Below, piece after piece: positions 497 to 47,226 of a stretch of DNA of 64,000 nucleotides. Under the pieces are notes generated by a model that was not told the DNA's origin, ran no database searches, and worked only from the letters and a program-made list of their open reading frames with translations. Positions within the stretch are counted from its first letter, which is position 1. Every line of letters begins with the position of its first letter. Source of the stretch: Thioalkalivibrio sp. ALE31. GTDB taxonomy: Bacteria > Pseudomonadota > Gammaproteobacteria > Ectothiorhodospirales > Ectothiorhodospiraceae. The position numbers and the translations under genes are program-made. The stretch spans positions 124,001 to 188,000 of the forward strand of contig NZ_KB905020.1 in NCBI RefSeq assembly GCF_000377405.1, written 5' to 3'.

Positions 497-1501
497 ATGA
501 AGATCGATCAGTTGGTAGAGACGGCCGAAGCGATGGTGGCCCCTGGAAAGGGCATCATCGCCATCGATGAATCCACCGGGACGATCGGCAAGCGCCTGGG
601 CGCGGTCGGTGTCGAGAACACCGAGGAGAACCGGCGGACCTATCGCGAACTGCTGCTGACCACGCCGCAGCTCAACGAGTACATCTCGGGCGCGATCCTG
701 TATGACGAGACCATCCGCCAGTCGACCCGCGACGGCAAGCCGTTCGTCGACGTAATGAACGAGTCCGGCATCCTGCCGGGCATCAAGGTGGATACCGGCG
801 CGAAGGACCTGGCCGGGTTCCCCGGCGAGAAGGTGACCGAGGGCCTGGATGGCCTGCGCGAACGCCTGGAGGAATACGCCAAAATGGGCGCGCGGTTCGC
901 CAAGTGGCGCGCGGTGATCACGATTGGCGACACCATGCCCACCGACACCTGCATCGAGTCGAATGCGCACGCGCTGGCGCGGTATGCCGCGCTGTGCCAG
1001 GAGCAGGGCATCGTCCCGATCGTGGAGCCGGAGGTCCTGATGGACGGCAGTCACGACATCGAGACCTGCTACGGCGTGACCGAGGCGACCCAGCGCGCGG
1101 TGTTCAAGGCGCTCTACGAGCATCATGTCCTGCTGGAGGGCACCATCCTGAAGGCCAGCATGGTGCTGCCGGGCAAGGACTGCCCCGAGCAGGCCAGCGT
1201 GGAGGATGTCGCGCATGCGACGCTGCGTTGCCTGGAGTCCGCGGTGCCGGCGATCCTGCCCGGGATCGTGTTCCTCTCCGGTGGGCAGAGCGATGCCGAC
1301 GCCACCAATCACCTGGATGCGATGAACCGCATCGGCGGGGCCCCGTGGCCGCTGTCCTTCTCCTATGGTCGCGGCATGCAGCAGGCGGCGATGGAGCTGT
1401 GGGGCAAGGACATGGGCGCCAATTTCGAGAAGGCCCAGCAGACGGTGTACGAGCGCGCCCGCGACAACGGGCTGGCGGCCCAGGGCAAGTACGCGGCCTG
1501 A
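497..1501 (+). CDS. Fructose-bisphosphate aldolase, class I
   Basis: This 334-residue protein is a class I (Schiff-base) fructose-1,6-bisphosphate aldolase. It cleaves fructose-1,6-bisphosphate to dihydroxyacetone phosphate and glyceraldehyde-3-phosphate in the cytosol, and works in the reverse direction in gluconeogenesis or the Calvin cycle. The N-terminus has the family signature GKGIIAIDESTGTIGKRL. AKWRAVI carries the conserved Lys-Trp-Arg, and LEGTILKASMV carries the Schiff-base lysine (about residue 219). The start at 497 is chosen because AAGGAG lies at 486-491, five bases upstream; longer forms starting near 356 include non-homologous sequence. It stands alone, with about 150 bases of non-coding DNA before it. 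In a chemolithoautotroph the anabolic direction is likely, but that is inference. Confidence 0.95.
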   Translation: MKIDQLVETAEAMVAPGKGIIAIDESTGTIGKRLGAVGVENTEENRRTYRELLLTTPQLNEYISGAILYDETIRQSTRDGKPFVDVMNESGILPGIKVDTGAKDLAGFPGEKVTEGLDGLRERLEEYAKMGARFAKWRAVITIGDTMPTDTCIESNAHALARYAALCQEQGIVPIVEPEVLMDGSHDIETCYGVTEATQRAVFKALYEHHVLLEGTILKASMVLPGKDCPEQASVEDVAHATLRCLESAVPAILPGIVFLSGGQSDADATNHLDAMNRIGGAPWPLSFSYGRGMQQAAMELWGKDMGANFEKAQQTVYERARDNGLAAQGKYAA

Positions 1502-1567: not shown

Positions 1568-1581
1568 TTGATCTGGATCAA
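1568..1581 (+). promoter_or_regulatory. FNR/ANR-type box (TTGAT-N4-ATCAA)
   Basis: The sequence TTGATCTGGATCAA matches the FNR/ANR consensus TTGAT-N4-ATCAA at every defined position. Its centre is 1574.5. A class II activator site (centre at -41.5) would place transcription start near 1616, and a plausible -10 element, TAGCCT at 1604-1609, sits where it should. No protein gene begins in the next 390 bases, but a foldable RNA with a terminator does. FNR-family proteins sense oxygen through an iron-sulfur cluster; which regulator binds here is unknown. Confidence 0.6.
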
Positions 1582-1611
1582 GAAAGACCGGCGGATGGCT
1601 GACTAGCCTGA

Positions 1612-1733
1612 AACCGTCGGATCCGAACAACGGCCGCCAAGGAGCGCACGATCCCCCAGCGTGCAGGCGGCCGGATGCTTCCGACGGTGTATGTCGCGTC
1701 TTGGCCTGCTATCTCCGGATAGCAGGCTTTTTT
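1612..1733 (+). ncRNA. Candidate anaerobically controlled small structured RNA
   Basis: The region contains nested inverted repeats: ACCGTCGGA (1613-1621) pairs with TCCGACGGT (1680-1688), CGGCCGCC (1631-1638) pairs with GGCGGCCG (1666-1673), and GCACG (1646-1650) pairs with CGTGC (1660-1664). The apical loop contains CCCCC. A perfect 10-bp terminator follows at 1704-1727 with six Ts. Together with the FNR box upstream, this predicts a transcript of about 120 nt. A C-rich loop is a common feature of bacterial small RNAs that pair with ribosome-binding sites. I do not recognise a named family. An alternative is a leader of soxB with a terminator; GCAGGC at 1663-1668 could pair with the 5' terminator arm, so attenuation is possible. 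Confidence 0.5.
1704..1733 (+). terminator. Intrinsic terminator upstream of soxB
   Basis: GCCTGCTATC (1704-1713) and GATAGCAGGC (1718-1727) form a perfect 10-bp stem with a TCCG loop, followed by six Ts. It lies 202 bases after the aldolase stop and 242 bases before soxB, so it most simply ends the small RNA candidate at 1612-1733. Confidence 0.85.
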
Positions 1734-1774: not shown

Positions 1775-1975
1775 TCAAAGTTTCGCGATCTCGCGGGAAG
1801 GGGTGGCGAAGGTGGGCGCTTCTCCTGCCCATGTCCGGGAAAATGTGGTTATCGCAGGCTCGCTTGGCCGGCTCTGGCGGAACATTAATGGGTTTTGCGC
1901 GTCGGGAACTGCGTGGGGCCGCGGTAATGCCCCGTCGTTTGACGAGAAATCCAGAAGATCACCAAGGAGAGCGAC

Positions 1976-3709
1976 ATGAGTCTGACACGCCGAGAGTTCC
2001 TGGAGGCCATGGTGGCCGCAAGCGCCGCCGGCTTCTCGATGAATGCCTGGGCTGGCGAGAAGGGATCCTGGCGACCGGCCGATGCGGATATGTATGACCT
2101 GCCGAAGTTCGGCAATGTCTCGCTGCTGCACTACACGGACTGCCACGCGCAGCTGAAGCCGGTGTACTTCCGCGAGCCGGACGTGAACATCGGGGTTGGC
2201 GACATGCAGGGCAAGCCGCCGGTGATGGCAGGGAAGGAACTGCTGGAATACTTCGACATCAAGCCCGGTACGCCACTTGCGCATGCCGTGACGCACATGG
2301 ATTTCAAATATGCGGCCGAGAAGTACGGACGCCTGGGCGGGTTCTCCCACCTGTCCACGCTGATCCAGAAGCTCCGGGCGGAACGCCCGAACTCCCTGTT
2401 GCTGGACGGCGGCGACACCTGGCAGGGCTCGGCCACGTCGCTGTGGACCAACGGCCAGGACATGGTGGATGCGCAGAAGCTGCTGGGCGTGGACATCATG
2501 GTCGGCCACTGGGAGTTCACCTTTGGCGACGAACGGGTGATGGAGGTCATCGAGAACGACTTCAAGCCCAACAACATCGAGTTCCTGGCGCAGAACATCG
2601 AGGATCGCGACTGGGGCGACCCGGTCTTCGAGCCCTACACCATCCGCGAGATGAACGGGGTCCCGGTGGCGGTGATCGGCCAGGCCTTTCCGTATACCTC
2701 GGTGGCCAACCCCGACTACATGTTCCCGGACTGGAGCTTCGGCATCCGCGACGACAACATGCAGCGCATGATCGACGAGTGCCGCGAGAAGGGCGCCAAG
2801 GTGGTCGCGATCCTGTCGCACAACGGCATGGTCACGGACATGGAGATGGCCCGCCGCCTGCGCGACGTGGACGTGATCCTGGGTGGCCACACCCACGATG
2901 CCGTGCCCGGGGCGATGGAGATCGAGAATGCCGGCGGCGAGCGGACCCTGGTGACCAACGCCGGTTCCAACGGCAAGTTCGTGGGCGTGATGGACCTGGA
3001 TGTGACCGACAGCGGCATCCGCGACTACAAGTTCACGCTGCTGCCGGTGTTCTCCAACCTGATCGAGGCGGACGCGGAGATGGAAGAGCATATCCGCAAG
3101 GTTCGCGAGCCCTACGAGGACAAGCTGAGCGAAGAGTTGGCGGTTACCGACGGCGTGCTGTATCGCCGCGGCAACTTCAACGGCACCTTCGACGAAGTGA
3201 TCATGGACGCGATGATCAAGGAGATGGATGCCGAGGTGGCCCTCTCGCCGGGCTTCCGCTGGGGCGTGAGTGTGCTGCCGGGCTCGCCCATCACCTTCGA
3301 GGAGCTGATGACGCAGACCGCGACCACCTACTCGGAGACCCAGCGCAACGAGATGACCGGCGAGCAGTTGAAGAACGCGCTGGAGGACGTGGCCAACTCG
3401 ATCTTCAACTCCAACCCCTATCACCACCGGGGGGGCGACATGGTCCGGACCTCGGGGATCGAGTACACCATCGATCCGCATGAATCCATGGGCAGCCGCA
3501 TCAGTGATATGCACATCAACGGCGAGCCGCTGGATCCGGACAGGAAGTACGTGGTCGCCGGCTGGGCGAATGTCCACGAGCCGCTGGATACGGACCCGGT
3601 CTGGGACGTAGTCGCCAACTACCTGCGCGAGCACGACACCATCAGCCCCGGCAAGCCCTACCTGCCGCGACTGAAGAACGTCGAGGGCGATCCCGGTCTG
3701 GATCGCTGA
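1976..3709 (+). CDS. soxB: Thiosulfohydrolase SoxB
   Basis: SoxB hydrolyses the sulfate group from the cysteine S-thiosulfonate carried on SoxYZ in periplasmic thiosulfate oxidation, using a dinuclear manganese centre. The 577-residue protein begins with a twin-arginine signal (SLTRREFLE, then a short hydrophobic stretch ending at NAWAG), as expected for Tat export. The metallophosphatase/5'-nucleotidase fold shows in HYTDCHAQLKPVYFREP, LLLDGGDTWQGSATSLW, VGHWEFTFG, ILSHNGM and LGGHTHDAVP. The C-terminal half is the 5'-nucleotidase C domain. AAGGAGAG precedes the ATG. No other sox gene is nearby, so SoxYZ and SoxAX must be encoded elsewhere. A strong terminator follows. Confidence 0.96.
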   Translation: MSLTRREFLEAMVAASAAGFSMNAWAGEKGSWRPADADMYDLPKFGNVSLLHYTDCHAQLKPVYFREPDVNIGVGDMQGKPPVMAGKELLEYFDIKPGTPLAHAVTHMDFKYAAEKYGRLGGFSHLSTLIQKLRAERPNSLLLDGGDTWQGSATSLWTNGQDMVDAQKLLGVDIMVGHWEFTFGDERVMEVIENDFKPNNIEFLAQNIEDRDWGDPVFEPYTIREMNGVPVAVIGQAFPYTSVANPDYMFPDWSFGIRDDNMQRMIDECREKGAKVVAILSHNGMVTDMEMARRLRDVDVILGGHTHDAVPGAMEIENAGGERTLVTNAGSNGKFVGVMDLDVTDSGIRDYKFTLLPVFSNLIEADAEMEEHIRKVREPYEDKLSEELAVTDGVLYRRGNFNGTFDEVIMDAMIKEMDAEVALSPGFRWGVSVLPGSPITFEELMTQTATTYSETQRNEMTGEQLKNALEDVANSIFNSNPYHHRGGDMVRTSGIEYTIDPHESMGSRISDMHINGEPLDPDRKYVVAGWANVHEPLDTDPVWDVVANYLREHDTISPGKPYLPRLKNVEGDPGLDR

Positions 3710-5371: not shown

Positions 5372-5732
5372 TGGTGGAGGCGGCGGGAATCGAACCCGCG
5401 TCCGCAGGACCTCCGCCTTCGGCTCTACATGCTTATTCTGTCTTTGAGTTTAACCAGCTACTACCCGACAGGCAGGGAATGCAGCTGGCGATCCCGGTTG
5501 AGTTTTAATGGATCCACGCCGGGCGCGCTTCACCACGAGCTTATGAGAGTCGACGCCCGATACTGGACGCATAAGCACGGCTCCAGTCGGACGGCATCTA
5601 CCGGTTTTTAAGCGGCGAGTGCGTAGTTGTCGTCGTTGGCAACTATTTTTTTGCAGCGGTTTTTACGAGGTCCACTACAGCCTCGGCATGCACCTCAGGT
5701 TTCGCGACCCGCGTCGAAGCCAAGTCGCCCCC
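5372..5732 (-). ncRNA. ssrA: Transfer-messenger RNA (tmRNA)
   Basis: tmRNA rescues stalled ribosomes with SmpB and tags the incomplete protein for degradation. On the minus strand the 5' end GGGGGCGACTTGG pairs with the 3' end CGCCTCC-A-CCA to form a seven-pair tRNA-like acceptor stem. The T-arm reads CGGGTTCGATTCCCGCC. The tag frame at 5608-5640 encodes ANDDNYALAA followed by TAA, with the resume alanine GCC at 5640-5638. The length of 361 nt fits one-piece tmRNA. The mature 5' end is probably made by RNase P; the promoter is not clear. Confidence 0.96.
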
Positions 5733-46242: not shown

Positions 46243-47226
46243 ATGAATGCAAGGCGTGAACCCTCCGGCCCGCGCAGCTTCCGGGTCACCGAGCGTGGTG
46301 ACGGGCAGCGGCTCGACAACTTTCTGCTCCGCGAACTCAAGGGCGTGCCCAAGGGGCTGATCTATCGCCTGGTACGCCAGGGCGCCGTGCGCGTCGACGG
46401 ACGCCGGGCCAAGGCCCACAAACGCCTGGCGGCGGGCAACGAGGTTCGCGTGCCCGATCTCGATCGGCCGGAAGCGGCCGCCTCGGAGATCCCGCCGAAG
46501 GTGCTGGATCGACTGCGGCGGGCCATCATCCACGAGGATGACGACCTGCTGGTGCTGGACAAGCCCTCGGGCCTCGCCGTGCACGGCGGCAGCGGGCTGG
46601 CCTTCGGCATTATCGAGGCGATGCGCCAGTTGCGGCCGGATACGGAGCTCGAGCTGGGCCACCGCCTCGACCGCGAGACCAGCGGGTGCTTGTTGCTGGC
46701 AAAGAACCGCCCCGCGCTGCAGGACTTCCACGCCGCACTCCGCGAGGGCCGGGTGGAGAAGCGCTACCTGGCGTTGCTGGTGGGCCCGTTCCCGGGTGGC
46801 CAGCCCATCGAGTGTGATGCCCCGATCGCCAGCGGCCGCCAGGATGACGGCCGGCGCCGGATGCGCGCCGGCGGGGAGGCCGGGGATGACGGGCCACGGG
46901 CTCGTGCCGCCCAGAGTGTCTTTCAGCCGCTGGAGGTGCATGGCGCGTACCAGCTGGCGGAGGTGCGGATCGGGACGGGGCGCACGCACCAGATTCGCGT
47001 GCACGGCCAGGCGATTGGCCACCCGGTGGCGGGCGACCACGACTACGGCCTGCCGGATGCCAACCGCCACCTCCGCAAGCAGGGCCTGAAACGGCTGTTC
47101 CTGCATGCCCAGGCGCTGGCCTATCAGTCGGCGGACGGCGAGCGGCATGTGTTCTCCGCACCGCTACCGGACGAGCTGGGCGAGGTGCTGGCGCACCTGG
47201 ATGCCGGCACCGGGGACGACGCATGA
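46243..47226 (+). CDS. rluC: 23S rRNA pseudouridine synthase RluC
   Basis: RluC converts uridines 955, 2504 and 2580 of 23S rRNA to pseudouridine. The 327-residue protein has an N-terminal S4 RNA-binding domain (RLDNFLLRELKGVPKGLIYRLVRQGAVRVDGRRA), then the catalytic domain with HRLDRETSGCLLLAK (catalytic Asp), and the conserved RTHQIRVH. It is divergent from rne, a conserved arrangement. The HAD gene overlaps its stop by four bases. Confidence 0.95.
   Translation: MNARREPSGPRSFRVTERGDGQRLDNFLLRELKGVPKGLIYRLVRQGAVRVDGRRAKAHKRLAAGNEVRVPDLDRPEAAASEIPPKVLDRLRRAIIHEDDDLLVLDKPSGLAVHGGSGLAFGIIEAMRQLRPDTELELGHRLDRETSGCLLLAKNRPALQDFHAALREGRVEKRYLALLVGPFPGGQPIECDAPIASGRQDDGRRRMRAGGEAGDDGPRARAAQSVFQPLEVHGAYQLAEVRIGTGRTHQIRVHGQAIGHPVAGDHDYGLPDANRHLRKQGLKRLFLHAQALAYQSADGERHVFSAPLPDELGEVLAHLDAGTGDDA

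Follow-up and report, generated by a model that had tools for sequence, protein, structure and literature searches.

Organisation of the fba-soxB interval

The window, i.e. the whole 64-kb stretch of DNA analysed here, belongs to the 2.77-Mb genome of Thioalkalivibrio sp. ALE31. Between the genes for a class I fructose-bisphosphate aldolase and the thiosulfohydrolase SoxB it carries the elements of a predicted small RNA gene, which are arranged as follows:

497-1501, plus strand: class I fructose-bisphosphate aldolase gene (fba; NF033379), upstream neighbour
1568-1581, plus strand: FNR box TTGATCTGGATCAA, a perfect TTGAT-CTGG-ATCAA
1604-1609, plus strand: TAGCCT as -10-like hexamer; its distance from the box, 22 nt, is the class II spacing
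1616-1733, plus strand: predicted small RNA of about 118 nt, its start deduced from class II geometry
1616-1685, plus strand: 5' hairpin in its group A form, capped by a C-rich apical loop, 5 of 35 pairs changed on both sides among eight group A sequences
1686-1699, plus strand: linker GGUGUAUGUCGCGU, unchanged across all 15 homologues and the likely seed
1703-1733, plus strand: intrinsic terminator stem-loop and T-run, the stem kept and its sequence differing among three subgroups
1879-1903, plus strand: promoter-like GGAAC-N16-CGTC, presumed to be soxB's own promoter; GGAA(C/T)-N16/17-CGTC in 15 of 15
1976-3709, plus strand: soxB, thiosulfohydrolase gene (TIGR04486), downstream neighbour in 15 of 15

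A small open reading frame beginning at the ATG of the linker runs into the terminator. No Rfam family, FnrS and rsmX included, scored above its gathering threshold in the small RNA interval; positions 1500-1980 gave four sub-threshold matches, FnrS not being among them. The sole above-threshold Rfam match in the window is a tmRNA gene at 5372-5732 on the minus strand.

Promoter geometry and distribution of the locus

The initial annotation had described a perfect TTGAT-N4-ATCAA box and a -10-like TAGCCT at the spacing of a class II activator. Both elements were confirmed, and their spacing predicts a transcription start at 1616. The perfect box occurs once in the window and at five places in the ALE31 genome, that of the small RNA included; the reversed pattern occurs at none. 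The other four boxes adjoin ccoN (cbb3 oxidase), the gene for a di-haem cytochrome c peroxidase, hemerythrin/COX1-like genes and beta-CASP nuclease/PBP genes. Cytochrome c peroxidase and cbb3 oxidase are typical FNR/ANR targets. The ALE31 genome also encodes a canonical FNR (NF008365, 254.4 bits against a cut-off of 228), which carries CxxCxxxxxC near its N-terminus.

The small RNA locus was found in 15 of 47 genomes of the family (13 by BLAST, 15 by a pattern with at most two mismatches), and all 15 are among the 30 genomes of the genus Thioalkalivibrio. In a model search of the 47 genomes these 15 scored between 49.1 and 85.6 bits, and the next match 28.0. The homologues fall into subgroup A (n = 8, including that of the window), subgroup B (n = 5) and subgroup C (n = 2), and the order of box, -10-like hexamer, hairpin, linker, terminator and soxB is constant in every one of them. 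The box is perfect in 13 homologues and one base off (an ATCAC half-site) in two, and the hexamer lies 22 nt from the box in 13 and 21 nt in two, so that a class II FNR site with a -10 element, as sought for a small RNA of the FnrS kind, was present at the sequence level in 15 of 15. The 14-nt linker is identical throughout, despite the changing scaffold around it. The fba-soxB neighbourhood, which had been put forward as the setting of the element, was retained on the soxB side only, since fba is not essential; its place is taken by a tRNA-Ser gene in two of the 15 (G012 and G021).

Beyond the family, a model search of 369 genomes of the class gave two strong matches, both in Thioalkalivibrio; the table of this search includes four family genomes (G000, G020, G006 and G007), and 259 matchless genomes are unlisted. 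The next-best match across the class, at 28.9 bits, covers the terminator part alone. In a species collection, the linker with one free base was found in 13 contigs, 12 from Thioalkalivibrio and one from a Planctomycetaceae bin; the latter can be explained by chance, as about two chance matches were estimated. The 15 genomes form one clade, and the presence of the RNA and that of the tpx site described below are confounded with ancestry.

Folding of the predicted RNA

For the RNA at 1612-1733 a folding energy of -60.3 kcal/mol was computed (z = -5.05), which none of 200 shuffled sequences equalled. Folding from 1616 gave z = -2.7 (60 shuffles), and folding of the 15 homologues from their predicted starts gave z-scores between -1.7 and -5.4 (60 shuffles each). 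Three nested stems of 9, 8 and 5 bp had been noted in the 5' hairpin. All eight sequences behind the group A consensus keep the 5-bp inner stem (GCACG/CGUGC), where the single-sequence minimum has 4 bp, but a transcription start at 1616 would reduce the 9-bp outer stem to 6 bp and leave the first linker bases free. The terminator, previously given as a 10-bp stem with six Ts, does end in six Ts but has 11 pairs when one G-U is counted; it is present in 15 of 15.

A search for covariation among homologous regions, proposed at the outset, brought out compensatory changes in the group A hairpin. The number of pairs altered on both sides in that hairpin was reached in 2 of 500 shuffles, and 96.8% of alignment cells can pair, which none of 500 shuffles matched; further pair types were no more frequent than in shuffles (256 of 500 as high). 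In group B, 0 of 38 pairs are altered on both sides, and the sequence of the hairpin varies between subgroups A, B and C. The C-rich apical loop is restricted to the eight group A sequences; the five of group B form a different hairpin, in which the C-run is mostly paired, and this speaks against the suggestion that the loop is the working part of the RNA. The linker is unpaired but for a 3-bp hairpin in the 13 sequences of groups A and B, nearly free in the G012 fold and largely paired in the G021 fold.

Conserved box, spacing, hairpin and terminator support the proposal of an independent small RNA under FNR control. Judged from these features, positions 1616-1733 very probably encode an FNR-activated small RNA, and the gene is conserved and almost certainly FNR-linked.

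The linker and its complementarity to the tpx leader

Base-pairing small RNAs usually have a changing scaffold and a constant exposed stretch ahead of the terminator. The linker GGUGUAUGUCGCGU is identical in all 15 homologues while the scaffold changes, and it is therefore probably the seed. We searched nine genomes for its complement, allowing at most two mismatches. Among the matches listed, the ALE31 genome holds 16 places against 28 for the control, i.e. no excess. We inspected 15 places of this genome (the small RNA itself set aside) and six from other genomes. Two of the ALE31 places lie ahead of a possible gene start, one at tpx, with a clear ribosome-binding site, and one at locus L122; a place at window position 46935 is internal to two open frames (279 and 378 codons) and away from any leader. 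The motif CGACAT ahead of a start occurs at too many places to follow.

The tpx gene, which encodes thiol peroxidase (NF001808, 224 bits against a cut-off of 123), sits behind a gene named by eye as gcvPA, and the linker is complementary to the gcvPA-tpx stretch immediately upstream of the tpx ribosome-binding site. The gene is present in 15 of 15 genomes with the small RNA and in 11 of 15 others searched. Ahead of its ribosome-binding site, groups A and B carry ACGYGCCATAC and group C carries ACGCGACGTGC(C/A)ATACC; the second half of the block is lost in G026 and G022, and G040 has one change. Complementarity scores are 21, 21, 21, 19, 19, 17, 15 and 13 in group A (21 in the ALE31 genome), 23 in all five genomes of group B, and 20 and 22 in group C, so that at least 19 is reached in 12 of the 15 genomes, across three subgroups. 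The 11 relatives that have tpx and lack the small RNA score 10-15, with clear complementarity in none; G026 and G022, at 15 and 13, fall within this range, and G040 scores 17. A score of 19 or higher was seen in 104 of 6000 random windows, one of 21 or higher in 24 and one of 23 or higher in 4, and three among 601 gene leaders that were sampled scored at least 21.

Random genomic 14-mers equalled the linker on the tpx leaders of ALE31, G016 and G021 taken together in 1 of 200,000 draws (0 of 6000 in a smaller run), a null that preserves the relatedness of the leaders and not the selection of tpx out of a whole-genome scan. The duplex energies gave p values for tpx of 0.004-0.01 in group B, 0.012-0.022 in group C and 0.10-0.36 in group A, and the clade mean, compared with shuffled linkers, gave p = 0.023. 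The energy value of tpx is reached by 50 of 326 leaders in the ALE31 genome and by 0 of 275 in G016. Because these cruder energies are weaker, we hold the chance that tpx is a target of the predicted RNA to about even. A further idea on tpx, that the TGA in its homologues from eight relatives encodes selenocysteine, was rejected, as the TGA is the ordinary gene end at residue 167.

Other candidate targets

The same FNR-activated small RNA may instead act mainly on other messengers, such as those for a CbbQ/NirQ/NorQ-type ATPase, a COX1-like protein, an MFS-like protein or others, the match at tpx being minor or due to chance. We regard this as unlikely, though it accommodates several leader matches. 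The stretch before the start of the CbbQ/NirQ/NorQ-type ATPase gene (CbbQ_C and AAA_5 domains) carries ACGCGCATACACC in the ALE31 genome and CGCGCATACACC in G016 and G023, which makes it a candidate target. Nevertheless, random 14-mers equalled the linker on the ALE31 and G016 leaders of this gene in 115 of 200,000 draws, 19 of 326 leaders in ALE31 and 16 of 275 in G016 equal its energy, and chance could explain the match. A search of another group A contig (G018:C3) did not recover the gene. In G016, an FNR-boxed COX1-like gene has a 14-nt site with two mismatches over its start codon, and its leader has the top score among 275 leaders sampled in that genome, but the site is not kept in the ALE31 genome. 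At L122, the site has two mismatches and lies 31 nt ahead of the possible start of an MFS-like gene (named by eye), where there is no ribosome-binding site.

At L157, L158 and L202, the ATPase is 99.3% identical between the ALE31 genome and G016, and the gene after it encodes a protein of 777 aa that matched nothing in Pfam or NCBIfam.

Relation to soxB

The locus had also been read as a possible soxB leader with attenuation, GCAGGC at 1663-1668 pairing with the 5' terminator arm. In such a leader, transcription from the FNR promoter would be cut short at the terminator, and soxB would be governed by read-through. soxB does follow in 15 of 15 homologues, 197-282 nt downstream of the linker. 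Yet the terminator is kept in all of them, and GCAGGC occupies the proposed antiterminator place in the window's own RNA alone (1 of 15); one other homologue, L015, differs in its terminator arm and has a GCAGGC at another place. Moreover, GGAA(C/T)-N16/17-CGTC, which resembles an ECF-sigma-type promoter, stands between the terminator and soxB in every homologue. The presence throughout of a promoter motif of soxB's own and the lack of conservation of the proposed antiterminator make the attenuator improbable. If the ECF reading of the motif is true, soxB would be controlled by an alternative sigma factor. The start of soxB was considered as a pairing target of the linker and rejected (p = 0.007 in the ALE31 genome and at least 0.18 in each of the 14 others).

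soxB is present in 26 of 31 relatives searched, all of them without the RNA by pattern search (28 loci). For 22 of these loci the soxB start could be placed, and the upstream DNA covered (about 350 nt in two of them) showed neither a box nor a piece of the linker; for the remaining six the start was not located. One of these six (L099 of G006) has, about 1.15 kb upstream of its soxB match, a perfect FNR box but no linker. G041 and G035 possess a second copy of soxB (L077 and L078, respectively), 75-77% identical to the SoxB of the window, the other copy being about 60% identical; these second copies have no small RNA upstream.

A protein-binding or protein-titrating role in place of mRNA pairing, for instance as a CsrA/RsmA sponge, is still less probable. 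The rsmX match that hints at it is far below threshold (12.7 bits against a gathering value of 56, E = 6.6), and what is invariant in the RNA is a linker that contains no GGA, not a run of GGA loops.

Proposed mechanism and comparison with known small RNAs

Conservation, promoter geometry and complementarity are read directly from the sequence, and we propose a series of linked steps that would account for them. At low oxygen, FNR would activate the class II promoter, giving an independent RNA of about 118 nt whose transcription would end at the intrinsic terminator. The linker, which separates the 5' hairpin from the terminator, would then base-pair in trans with mRNA leaders, and its pairing by the ribosome-binding site of tpx would most likely lower translation of tpx at low oxygen. 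That the RNA is transcribed, that oxygen controls it, that it pairs with its targets in vivo and that the outcome is repression are the steps that we infer. On balance, we favour this reading as a whole, i.e. a trans-acting small RNA activated by FNR, with the linker as seed and tpx as the best-supported target.

FnrS of the Enterobacteriaceae represses functions that are dispensable without oxygen, oxidative stress functions included, according to PMC3032703 and PMC8139620. As described in these sources, it resembles the RNA proposed here in its class II FNR site (at -41.5 in FnrS), its independent short transcript and its intrinsic terminator. In contrast, an Rfam match is absent, the host lineage, the seed and the proposed targets differ, and the Thioalkalivibrio RNA is predicted from sequence. 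In 2011, an fnrS homologue had not been seen outside the Enterobacteriaceae, although a functional equivalent was described in gonococci (PMC3032703). The gonococcal FnrS is reported there to be anaerobically induced, about 111 nt long and composed of a class II FNR site, a 5' stem-loop, an unstructured region and a terminator. Compared by description, the RNA of Neisseria gonorrhoeae and the predicted one share the class II site, a length of about 110 nt, the 5' stem-loop, the open stretch and the terminator; the gene neighbourhood is different and no Rfam family matched. Another oxygen-responsive small RNA, ArcZ of the Enterobacterales, has tpx listed among its targets in PMC8139620. ArcZ, however, is under ArcA, which represses it, and not under FNR, and shows no homology by Rfam.

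A more specific reading is that the locus represents an independently arisen FnrS analogue of haloalkaliphilic sulfur oxidisers, linked to soxB, whose seed represses both tpx and the CbbQ-type ATPase. We put this forward only tentatively and consider it rather unlikely as a whole, the more so because clear tpx leaders number 12 of 15 and a further leader matches at L122. Were the tpx and CbbQ-type ATPase reading true, oxygen shortage would be tied to peroxide defence, and possibly to carbon fixation, in a chemolithoautotroph. An unrelated equivalent of FnrS in soda-lake sulfur oxidisers would suggest that FNR has on at least two occasions recruited a small RNA, adding repression to its regulon. 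The defined seed and the named candidate target make the locus testable.

The titles and abstract openings of the literature on Thioalkalivibrio small RNAs, on FNR-dependent small RNAs of sulfur oxidisers and on FnrS and thiol peroxidase did not mention this locus. The main text of PMC11109978, a survey of one Thioalkalivibrio genome, has neither soxB nor FNR, and its supplement may hold an entry. RNA motifs found only in Thioalkalivibrio (mgtE, aceE-II, ykoW and smtA) are described in that source; these are likewise narrow, genus-restricted and structured, but lie at other genes.
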